A stretch of DNA of 64,000 bases from Morchella semilibera. Its lineage: Eukaryota > Ascomycota > Pezizomycetes > Pezizales > Morchellaceae. The number at the start of each line of letters is the position of its first letter. Position 1 is the first letter of the stretch. Both the position numbers and the translations under genes were made by a program. The notes under the pieces were generated by a model. That model was not told the origin of the DNA. It saw nothing but the letters and a program-made list of their open reading frames with translations, and searched no databases. Of this stretch, positions 42,681 to 50,375 are shown in pieces. The stretch is taken from positions 1 through 64,000 of the forward strand of contig WBVU01000017.1 of assembly GCA_009192285.1 (NCBI GenBank), in the 5' to 3' direction.

Positions 42681-45600
42681 TCAAGCCCCCGTATGAATAA
42701 ACGGCGCCCAGGTAAGCGGCCTATCAACACAATCCGCCCTCACCTTCCTCACCGCCTCATGCAGCGCCAAGCTGACCGCCAAATGCCCGTCCTCTACGTG
42801 ACCCCCGTCCTCACCACTGTCATAAAGCTTATAAAAGTCCCTTGCCACAGCTTTACACGCCTCATCTTTCGACTGCCACAGTGTAGCAACCACATGGTTG
42901 AACCCCGCAAGCTGGAGAGCACTCGCCAGATGAATCGTCTCGTCCGCCAGCTCAAACGCGGCATTGTCGGCGGTGCTGCAGGCCGAGAGATATGCCAGTT
43001 GGGCCTTTGAAGACATGGCTGTCGATATCTGCCGCACTGTCAACCTGTCGATGCCATCTTGCCCCCCGGGCCCGCTAGAGTGTTTCAGAAGCAGCAAGCT
43101 GCTGTTAGAAGGGTCTTTGGCGTCGGAAATGCCGTGGCAGGCAAAATGGACTGCATCAAACTCCGGAAGCTCCTCCATGACAGTCCTGGCATCTGGCCGC
43201 TCCAAGACCTTAGTTTTGGCGGGTCCAGTGCTCTCGGCGCCGTCTTTGCCTGCAACGATACTCACGAGGGTGGTGAGCTCTTCTTGTACCCCGGGTAAGG
43301 CGGGATGCCCCGGCGTCAAGGGCATGGTAACTAACAGGAGACGGGTGCCAGCTATTGAGGTCATGCTCAACTTCCGCTGCCGGGCATACATGAGGGACTT
43401 GACTGTGGGGATGTAGGAAGAAATGACCTTGCTCATTGTATATCTTGCAGACCCCTTCTTGTGATGTCCGGCTGCATGGAACGGCGCCCTACTCAGCTCC
43501 CCGATCCCGATCCACCATATTCTCGATGTTTTCGACTTTGGCTTCACCTTGTCCAATACTGGCTTCACAGCCTCGTCCCAAAGCCACGCAAGATACTTGA
43601 CCATTGTCTTGTTTCTTTTATCTCGGGTTCTGAGGCTGCCCTTGACTAGATTTAGAGACATATCCCGCATCTTTGCCTTGGCATCCTTATACAGCAGTGT
43701 TTTGAGTTCAATAGACTCTATCGCGGACCTTGTGACGATGATGGCATCGCTCCGGAGCGAAGTAGTACACATAATCACAATTGCATCGTCCTGCGCCATC
43801 TCCATGAGGGACTCCTCGCTCGGCGGCAAAAGAAAGCTAGCGTACTGAGGTATTTCACGGATCTTTTTCAGAAGCTCCTCCATTTCATCCAGTGCCAACC
43901 TCCGCTTTGCTGCCGGGGAATTCAGATGGTCCGCCGGGATCCCCGGGCTCTTCTCCGGTAGTTGTGTGTTGGCCTCCGTCCGTAGGGTGACCAATGTTTC
44001 GTATAGAGTCGGATGTGTCGTTTTTAGATCCGACATCTCGCTGCGACTGTCGATTGCAAAGCCCGTGATGATGCCTCGCCCAAGCTCAAGGAGCTTCAGA
44101 GCCGTATATGCACCTCGGCCCGCCTCGAGGGCAAAGGAAGCTGCCAATGAGGAGAGACCATACAGATGTGACAGTAGCTGCTGCTGGTCACCCCGCTCCA
44201 GGGACCGCAAACTAATCTTTGGTAGCATCTCGACCGCCTTCTCGAGCAATATGCTAGACTCCTCCAGCGAGACGAGCCCATGCGAACCAAAGAACCCGAC
44301 TGCGCGCCAGATCGCCTGCACACGGACGTTGGGGGGCGCAGCCTGGCAGTTCCATGCGTCTATGAAAGCATTGAAGGCTCTCGTTCGATCATCGTCCGCA
44401 TTAAGGCCGTCTTTAGACTTCAGCTTGTGCCTCAATCTCAGATTGGTCCCGAGGCAAACAAGTCTGTGCGCGCGAGACGGCATGTCCAGAGGTGTGGCTA
44501 GCACAGCCTTCTGTTCACAGTCGATTGCTGCATCGAGGTCATTCATGTTCTTGTCAGCGGCATTCGAGTTCTCGAACCGGACATGGTAGCATTTCCCTAG
44601 TGTCAACGACCTGCCCTGACGCTCGGGATCGTCCTCCGCAGTTATTTCTAGGGCCTTTTCGATATACTGAATGGCCTCGTCTAGATCGCAGGGAGTGTGC
44701 TCTTTCATGTATAGAGTTGTCAGGTTGTCTGCCACGGATTCGAGTTTATCAGCGAGGGAAGGGTCACCGGGCTTTGTTGCCTCAAGGCGGGCCCGACTAT
44801 GCCGGATTGCGGGCTCGAGGTCGGCCGAGGCACCCAACCGGGAATAACGAGATCCCAGGAACGGCCCCAGGCTATTGACTATCCTCTCCCTGTCTGGATG
44901 ATCCATCGGTGTCTCCTGTACGGCCACCTTCACGTACTCAATTCCTGCCTCCAGGTCTGAAAGAGCTCCAAACCGACGATATTTGCATCTGAGCAGCCCA
45001 CCCAAATCAACAAGGCTTCTCGTACGCTCGGGGCTTCCCGGGACGGTATCCTCGAGACAGGTCACTGTATGGCGGATCGCCGTTTCAAGGTCCTCCAAGT
45101 CCCCGAACCTATCGAAGCGGGCGTGAAGAGCGTCGCTCAAATCGCCGAGCCTGCTCTTGTAATCAGGATGCTCCGCCGGAGTGGCTTTTGCAGCTGCTTC
45201 TGCACACCTTACGGCAACGTTGAGGGGGCCCACGGCGTCCAGCCGCCTGTGCTGCCAGCGGAGCAGAGCGCTCAAGTACGTCAGGTTCTCGGCACGCTTC
45301 GGGTCATCCTCAGACGTCAATCTCAATATCTCCTCGACACGCTCAATGCCCTCCTTAAGGTCTTCCGGTGCCCTGCGTCGACTGTAGCGGGAAACCATGA
45401 TAACTGCAAGCTGGTTCAACCTACTAACGCGGTCAGGACTGCCCTCGGGGATTTCCTTTAGGCATTCCTTCATGTAATCTGTAGCTGCGTCGAGGTCGTT
45501 CAATGTCTGCTGTCTATTGTAACGAGTGATGAGGGATCCACTTAGATCATGGAGGAGCTTTGGGTGGTCAGGGTGGCTGTGCGGCAGCTCTCTGAGTGTT

Positions 45601-49479: not shown

Positions 49480-50375
49480 ATGGTGAAGAGCATCCTCCCC
49501 ACCACCCCGCTTCCCCTCACCGCCATCAAACTCGGTCGACTCGTGACCAGCACCCGCTACCCGCACCAAGACTACACTGACCCACCCACCCCTCCCCCGC
49601 GCCGGAGAGCACCCGCACCGTGCTGCACGACTTCGAGGAGCTCCGGAGCTCGACGCGGGGCTCGGGCCTGCGCACACGCCTCGTCAGTTCCCTCTCTCTG
49701 GCGCTCGCAACCCACGGCGAGACCCACCTCGACCTCTCCGCCGCCCAGTCGTACACCTACACGCTGACCAACTCGGGGGCGTGGTTCGGTGCGGCGTGCC
49801 ACTCGCCCGATGCGCGCGCGTGGCTCGAGGCCGCGATCGAGAATGACAACACGGTGTACCTGGTTGTGGGGTACCACACGCTGGTTGATGCGCGGGTGAC
49901 GGAGCGGGCGGCGGTGGCAGGGGCGGCGGGGGTGGGCGCGGGGATTAGTGTCATGGGGGTGGTGGGCGTGGCGGGGGTTGGGGGGGTCGAGGTGACGACT
50001 GAGGCCGTTGTCGGGGGTGAGACGGTATATCAGAGGGTTTTTGAGACCCGGGGGGAGTGCGTCTTTGCGGTGCAGTACCGGAAGGTGAGGTTTCGTTGGT
50101 ACTCGAGTCGGTGTGTCGAGACGGCATTCTTGGAGAGGGGTAATCGGTGGAAGCCGTGCATGGGGGTTAGGGGGCAGGATGACGACGGCGTAGACGATAT
50201 AGTCGAGGCCGAGATCTCGGAGGATTGGAGTGACGGTGATGAGGAGGAGGAGGAGGAAGAGGAGGAGGAGGAGGGGGAGGGGGAGGGTGGGGGGGAGAGG
50301 GAGGGAGGGACCAAGAGTCCTCATGTAACAGAGACATATGTTACGGAGAGCGGCGAGACAGAATTTGTTTTCTGA
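49480..50375 (+). CDS. Gasdermin-like pore-forming protein, apparent frameshift
   Basis: The family forms plasma-membrane pores after proteolytic removal of an inhibitory tail and kills the cell. ATG 49480 opens a frame with TAIKLGRLVTSTRYPHQDYTD. After a C5 run (49594-49598) the coding signal continues in the -1 frame, open to the stop at 50375. That frame has no ATG near its beginning, hence a one-base indel or assembly error in the C-rich run. The total would be about 298 residues, the usual size. Supporting features in the second frame are SGAWFGAACHSPDARAWL, then TVYLVVGYHTLVDARVTE (laid out like the helix and strand 'NVYVVTEVL..EVEVTR' part of animal gasdermins), a Gly/Ala/Val-rich hairpin-like stretch, FAVQYRKVRFRWYSSR, and a strongly acidic tail (poly-Glu, 50237-50275). 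The assignment rests on pattern memory and context beside a CHAT protease. Confidence 0.57.

Follow-up and report, generated by a model that had tools for sequence, protein, structure and literature searches.

Protease-clustered fungal gasdermins, including those paired with TPR-CHAT proteases, were reportedly described by Clave et al. in 2022. Some 80% of gasdermin genes in fungi lie in clusters with protease genes, and approximately 17–19% with CHAT genes (PMC12881547, PMC10197012, PMC10989679; these sources, and PMC8940278 below, are cited from parts of their text), while the protease partners across fungi are about 63% S8 and about 19% CHAT (PMC10197012). In Podospora anserina, a two-gene cluster has been described in which a TPR-bearing CHAT protease activates the gasdermin (PMC12881547), and a short peptide at the C-terminus, which in one case contains two phenylalanines, keeps bacterial gasdermins inactive (PMC10989679). 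Here we analyse the first 64 kb of contig C14 (WBVU01000017.1, positions 1–64,000; hereafter the window) of Morchella semilibera, whose genome comprises 56.8 Mb in 23 contigs, and within it a divergent pair of genes for a gasdermin and a TPR-CHAT protease. Because protease-clustered fungal gasdermins, TPR-CHAT-linked ones included, already appear in reviews, this pair joins a known kind. It probably constitutes, in a morel-type ascomycete, a module of two genes for pyroptosis-like cell death, in which the gasdermin is switched on by its TPR-CHAT neighbour. The observations behind the original prediction of such a module are partly confirmed, and its interpretation is supported.

The gasdermin gene comprises the following features:

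49480–49580, plus strand: gasdermin N-terminal piece (MVKSIL..LGRLV..DYTDP) with an ATG at 49480, in a frame that differs from the rest; it resembles the start of relative P0001 by eye
49581–49604, plus strand: C-rich tract with an apparent frame change inside (sequence, paralogue comparison)
49581–50375, plus strand: gasdermin main frame of 264 amino acids, with stop (open frame, homology, orthologue fold)
50151–50372, plus strand: acidic C-terminal tail of 74 amino acids with a net charge of −26, a putative cleavable linker (composition)
50337–50372, plus strand: terminal peptide YVTESGETEFVF, a putative autoinhibitory strand (relatives' ends; low-confidence short strands in the orthologue model)

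Gasdermin identity, for which structure comparison had been set beforehand as the refuting test, is upheld. The predicted structure of the closest complete orthologue falls among gasdermins by the fold of its pore-forming domain, with RCD-1 providing the best structural matches in a VIA-align second look at Foldseek's top 1000 chains; the model of the window's own main frame alone is of too poor quality to place its fold. The main frame contains SGAWF, VYLVVGYHTLVDARV, FAVQYRKVRFRWYSSR and the acidic tail, the features from which a gasdermin-like product of about 300 residues had been predicted, but that product is not one frame, as positions 49480–50375 span 896 bases, a number not divisible by three. 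At the sequence level, the link to characterised gasdermins is transitive only, running from profile A2 to P0164 (E 1.1e-7) and from P0164 to HET-Q1 (PDB 9uv9, E 0.0014). Searches made directly from the window gasdermin and from profiles A1 and A3 returned no characterised gasdermin, and no Pfam gasdermin model matches the main frame. A PDB search with relative P0162 gave one match (E 7.3), and profiles A1 and A3 gave none; A1 was built from 16 of 18 first-round relatives, A3 from 35 of 44, and A4 from 35 of 44 (including P0001) together with the window frame. In prokaryote genomes, 15 pattern matches were obtained, none of them confirmed. Two sets of candidates were put down to composition, namely Sporozoite_P67, the sole Pfam match of the main frame (E 0.0027, below cut-off), and four matches of the window gasdermin frame in a PDB sequence search (E 0.11 or worse).

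The protease is transcribed away from the gasdermin, as originally described, and the region comprises the following features:

42681–47462, minus strand: TPR-CHAT protease gene, an open frame with an uncertain start (open reading frame, Pfam)
42687–43598, minus strand: CHAT caspase-like protease domain, residues 1244–1547 (Pfam PF12770, E 6e-39)
42978–42980, minus strand: codon of catalytic Cys1450, motif YLSACS (alignment with 15 other CHATs, Cys in 15 of 16)
43134–43136, minus strand: codon of catalytic His1398, motif HFACHG (same alignment, His in 15 of 16)
44148–47147, minus strand: degenerate TPR-like repeats, a putative sensor, residues 61–1060 (eight matches to a hand-made pattern; sub-threshold Pfam TPR)
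47246–47275, minus strand: N-terminal piece MGNILSILRF in an alternative frame, resembling the M. snyderi P0019 start MGNILSMLRL (comparison by eye)
47463–49479, no strand: intergenic gap of about 2 kb between the divergent genes; the longest stop-to-stop frame inside is 120 amino acids

The PF12770 domain and the aligned His-Cys dyad place the protease in the CHAT family, so that the long minus-strand frame and its catalytic motifs stand as predicted. Its length of 1548 amino acids, counted from a TTG at 47327, is doubtful, TTG being an abnormal start codon in fungi. The TPR repeats are degenerate, as all listed Pfam TPR models fall below cut-offs; relatives such as P0019 bear precomputed TPR domains. 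The closest named relatives are a Morchella snyderi protein (81% identical) and an M. sextelata protein (66%). Identities over the TPR-like region and CHAT are 0.65/0.72, 0.46/0.65 and 0.45/0.65 in three orthologues and equal in the closest one (0.82/0.81); the TPR-like region thus outpaces CHAT in divergence in three of four comparisons, which fits a sensor role. Neither NACHT nor NB-ARC occurs among the eight Pfam matches listed (E ≤ 1) for the 1548-residue frame, which is therefore not classed as an NLR-CHAT. This lack of a nucleotide-binding module had been taken to set the protease apart from many fungal versions; it is no distinction, because a TPR-bearing CHAT protease that activates a fungal gasdermin is already described in review. 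A PDB sequence search with the protease gave nine matches, all at E 0.48 or worse.

The predicted pairing of the two genes recurs among both orthologues and paralogues. In the window, the CHAT domain lies 6–7 kb from the gasdermin, within the 10 kb taken as linkage. The M. sextelata orthologues, H6S33_007905 and H6S33_007906, are on contigs of the same stated size, and two further gasdermin relatives match CHAT relatives in exact contig size (13308, 12077); judged against the best 120 of 885 CHAT matches, three of the five closest gasdermin matches are linked to CHAT relatives. The M. semilibera genome holds at least 16 gasdermin places and at least 17 CHAT places (C22 duplicates merged into C21), both counts being minima, because only top-ranking candidates are scored in the genome search. 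Three divergent-paralogue queries added no gasdermin place, and two CHAT places, one already met, came from a single CHAT query. A CHAT domain lies within 10 kb of 12 of the 16 gasdermins (random mean 0.105, maximum 3 in 20,000 draws), and 11 of these 12 pairs are head-to-head, the pair at C5:15733 being tail-to-tail. Two gasdermin places are weak, C14:1201926 (E 5.6e-4) and C21:1030163 (E 0.15), and are supported by other family members at E 5e-11 and 2e-7; dropping C21:1030163 gives 11 paired places out of 15. None of 12 genome matches to S8 proteases lies within 10 kb of any gasdermin, the nearest being 13 kb away, so that this set is inverted relative to the fungi-wide S8 majority. Pfam searches of open reading frames beside three of the four unpaired gasdermins found only NACHT-ankyrin and HeLo genes, beside C1:4106373; there (L021, L022; C1:4098000–4117000) an unpaired gasdermin is flanked by a NACHT-ankyrin gene on one side and a HeLo-domain gene on the other, possibly a small defence cluster.

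Protein distances of the two partners correlate across 13 pairs (r 0.71; 0 of 20,000 permutations), comprising 10 of the 12 own pairs (broken L018 and L020 excluded) and three foreign pairs, and more weakly when only the 10 own pairs are taken (r 0.37; 548 of 20,000). Maximum-likelihood trees of both families contain the clades window+P0001, P0002+P0003, all four of these, L016+L019 and L009+L012+L015; they disagree on L011, and the CHAT tree leaves four forks unsettled. The distance correlation and the largely agreeing trees suggest that gasdermin and CHAT genes have been passed down largely as units.

Family membership, the orthologue's predicted fold, the catalytic residues, the conserved neighbourhood and co-inheritance are directly supported, and from them we infer a sequence of ligand or trigger, cut, cap release, pore and killing. 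The gasdermin would be made inactive, its short C-terminal peptide capping the pore-forming domain via an acidic linker of variable length. The fast-evolving TPR-like region of the TPR-CHAT protein would detect a signal, most probably a parasite or non-self encountered when hyphae fuse, and the CHAT domain would cut the acidic linker to release the cap. The freed gasdermin would then oligomerise into plasma-membrane pores and kill the compartment. By analogy with the bacterial inhibitory peptide and the 40 residues lost by HET-Q1, we propose for the window's clade that the cap role falls to the terminal peptide, with the acidic stretch serving as the link to be cleaved. The nearest relatives share the terminal consensus Y-V-T-E-x-G-x-x-E-F-V-F, preceded by an acidic stretch whose length varies. 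A crude terminal-peptide pattern matches 35 of 55 gasdermin sequences, two of them (L013, P0163) false by eye, and misses the window's own end by one residue, plus a few near-variants. Weighing against a universal cap, a cap-type end occurs in just four of 13 own-genome sequences examined (window, L009, L011, L012), and the CHAT-paired L014, L016, L017 and L019 carry no putative cap peptide.

Of the alternatives, the one that survives best, although we consider it unlikely, is that the window locus is a decaying pseudogene pair in which real frame breaks inactivated the gasdermin and the start of the protease. Frame changes are indeed present in the gasdermin (49581–49604) and, as a similar apparent slip, near 47.27 kb at the protease start (47240–47275); moreover, the setting is subtelomeric and transposon-rich, and other pairs in the genome look decayed. 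An intron at the gasdermin frame change is unlikely, because same-genome paralogues (e.g., L009 and L011) hold the N-terminal piece and the main part in one unbroken frame. Against decay, the gasdermin retains its acidic tail and terminal peptide and the protease its catalytic dyad, and both breaks fall in G/C-rich tracts, which are common sites of assembly indels. In addition, 9.9 kb compared between contigs C21 and C22 show four 1-base indels but not a single substitution, and this pattern, although the indels cluster within about 100 bases, leans towards assembly indels as the cause of the frame breaks. The compared parts of C21 and C22 are probably an assembly duplicate or derive from two nuclei; their first 400 bases begin alike, and many gasdermin and CHAT matches recur in parallel on both.

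An improbable alternative is a cleavage-independent, RCD-1-like gasdermin, in which the meeting of two divergent variants triggers death and the neighbouring CHAT gene is a leftover or serves a different function. RCD-1 gives the best structural matches and is activated by allele co-expression rather than proteolysis (PMC12881547), and one paralogous pair is altered in both genes. In L015 (C6:1696500–1706000), an in-frame loss has removed the catalytic Cys segment of the CHAT, and a TAG stands just ahead of the gasdermin tail, a remnant of which is readable downstream. The window gasdermin, in contrast, retains the long acidic tail and terminal peptide, its CHAT retains both catalytic residues, and the two genes travel together. 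Across the 16 aligned CHATs (12 of 17 own places and four relatives), both residues are present in 14, and both exceptions are in the window's genome; the second, L020 (C21:1020800–1030700), has the catalytic His replaced by Arg beside a gasdermin broken in several frames. Among nine aligned own pairs with an intact dyad, eight gasdermins, all but the window copy, are open throughout, and two of the nine proteases (L012, L013) are themselves apparently split over two frames. In these small numbers, protease loss appears to accompany gasdermin damage. The C6 pair, with its dead protease and tail-less gasdermin, resembles the 'pseudogenization' route to allorecognition in PMC10197012, and may equally be explained by plain decay.

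That the TPR-CHAT protein is an unrelated regulator sharing only subtelomeric residence with the gasdermin is very improbable: five gasdermin loci are no more than 75 kb from a telomeric contig end and five of the 17 own CHATs have no gasdermin inside 10 kb, but five pairs sit 227–1030 kb from a contig end, and the head-to-head arrangement and largely agreeing trees also stand against it. The terminal five represent 5 of 16 places (binomial 0.002 with all 46 ends allowed, the places being non-independent), and two more lie within 75 kb of contig ends that carry no clear repeats. The window itself starts with telomere-type repeats, which places the preferred two-gene module near a chromosome end. 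Instead of plain TTAGGG, the repeat has a 10-mer unit, (TTAGTTAGGG)n, and occurs at window positions 1–130 and at ends of C1, C5, C6, C14, C17, C21 and C23 (18 of 46 contig ends inspected; present at 10); a literature search with the string TTAGTTAGGG found no fungal-telomere paper by title among those listed. Close to the telomere, a decayed second CHAT fragment with stops occupies 2878–3704 on the minus strand. Transposon-rich flanks at 20559–28753 and 53759–62818 contain Tc3-like, hAT, Tet/JBP-like and Ty3-type gag/pol frames, and 38870–41251 (plus strand) encodes a 793-residue protein with hydrophobic segments by eye and no above-cut-off Pfam match.

Three features may be new: a CHAT-dominated, partly subtelomeric repertoire of about a dozen pairs in one genome; two protease-dead pairs with gasdermins also damaged, including the C6 pair; and, judging from their sequences, gasdermins ending in a membrane-anchor-like hydrophobic helix. 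The latter comprise L013 (8607–9674), L023 (6524–7342) and, from Maublancomyces gigas, P0159, with mean hydropathies of 2.19, 1.72 and 2.35, respectively; the remaining 52 of the 55 sequences examined do not exceed 1.38. The C-terminal ends of L013 and P0159 look similar despite the difference in genus. Searches for gasdermin with tail-anchored, and for fungal gasdermin with transmembrane and CHAT, found no such report by title among the papers listed or in the portions consulted of PMC12881547 and PMC10197012, and a search for gasdermin with Morchella found no paper on morel gasdermins by title. More tentatively, morel-lineage gasdermin/TPR-CHAT pairs, many of them subtelomeric, might have taken over from the S8-linked gasdermins seen in other fungi as the chief non-self cell-death repertoire. 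They might also have branched into new activation modes, with a membrane helix instead of the inhibitory peptide (C17 pair, C16:1024853, P0159) and with the C6 pair as a possible step to protease-free, RCD-1-like allorecognition; we regard this wider scenario as doubtful. Vegetative incompatibility is widespread in morels and its underlying genes are mostly unknown; in Morchella importuna, the known het homologues examined vary little between alleles, and two mapped loci are insufficient for all reactions (PMC8940278, in whose main text the term CHAT has 0 occurrences). The gasdermin/CHAT pairs are ready candidates for such genes, and the set of about a dozen paired paralogues, in which naturally dead proteases and unusual tails occur, offers a natural experiment on gasdermin restraint.

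Among known systems, Craspase (type III-E CRISPR) is also a CHAT protease with TPRs, and P. anserina belongs to a different class of ascomycetes from morels. The TPR-CHAT/gasdermin cluster of P. anserina, compared by description only, has the same two components and the same proposed logic as the window pair. HET-Q1/HET-Q2 of the same fungus likewise joins a gasdermin with a short C-terminal inhibitory segment to an activating partner protease, but HET-Q2 is an S8 serine protease, unlike the TPR-CHAT cysteine protease of the window, and activation strips HET-Q1 of the 40 residues after F238 (PMC10989679), whereas the window tail is longer and acidic. Bacterial gasdermins are protease-clustered as well and carry a buried lipid modification (PMC10989679). 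RCD-1 of Neurospora crassa is not controlled by proteolytic cleavage (PMC12881547), unlike the window gasdermin as we read it, with its tail and linked protease.
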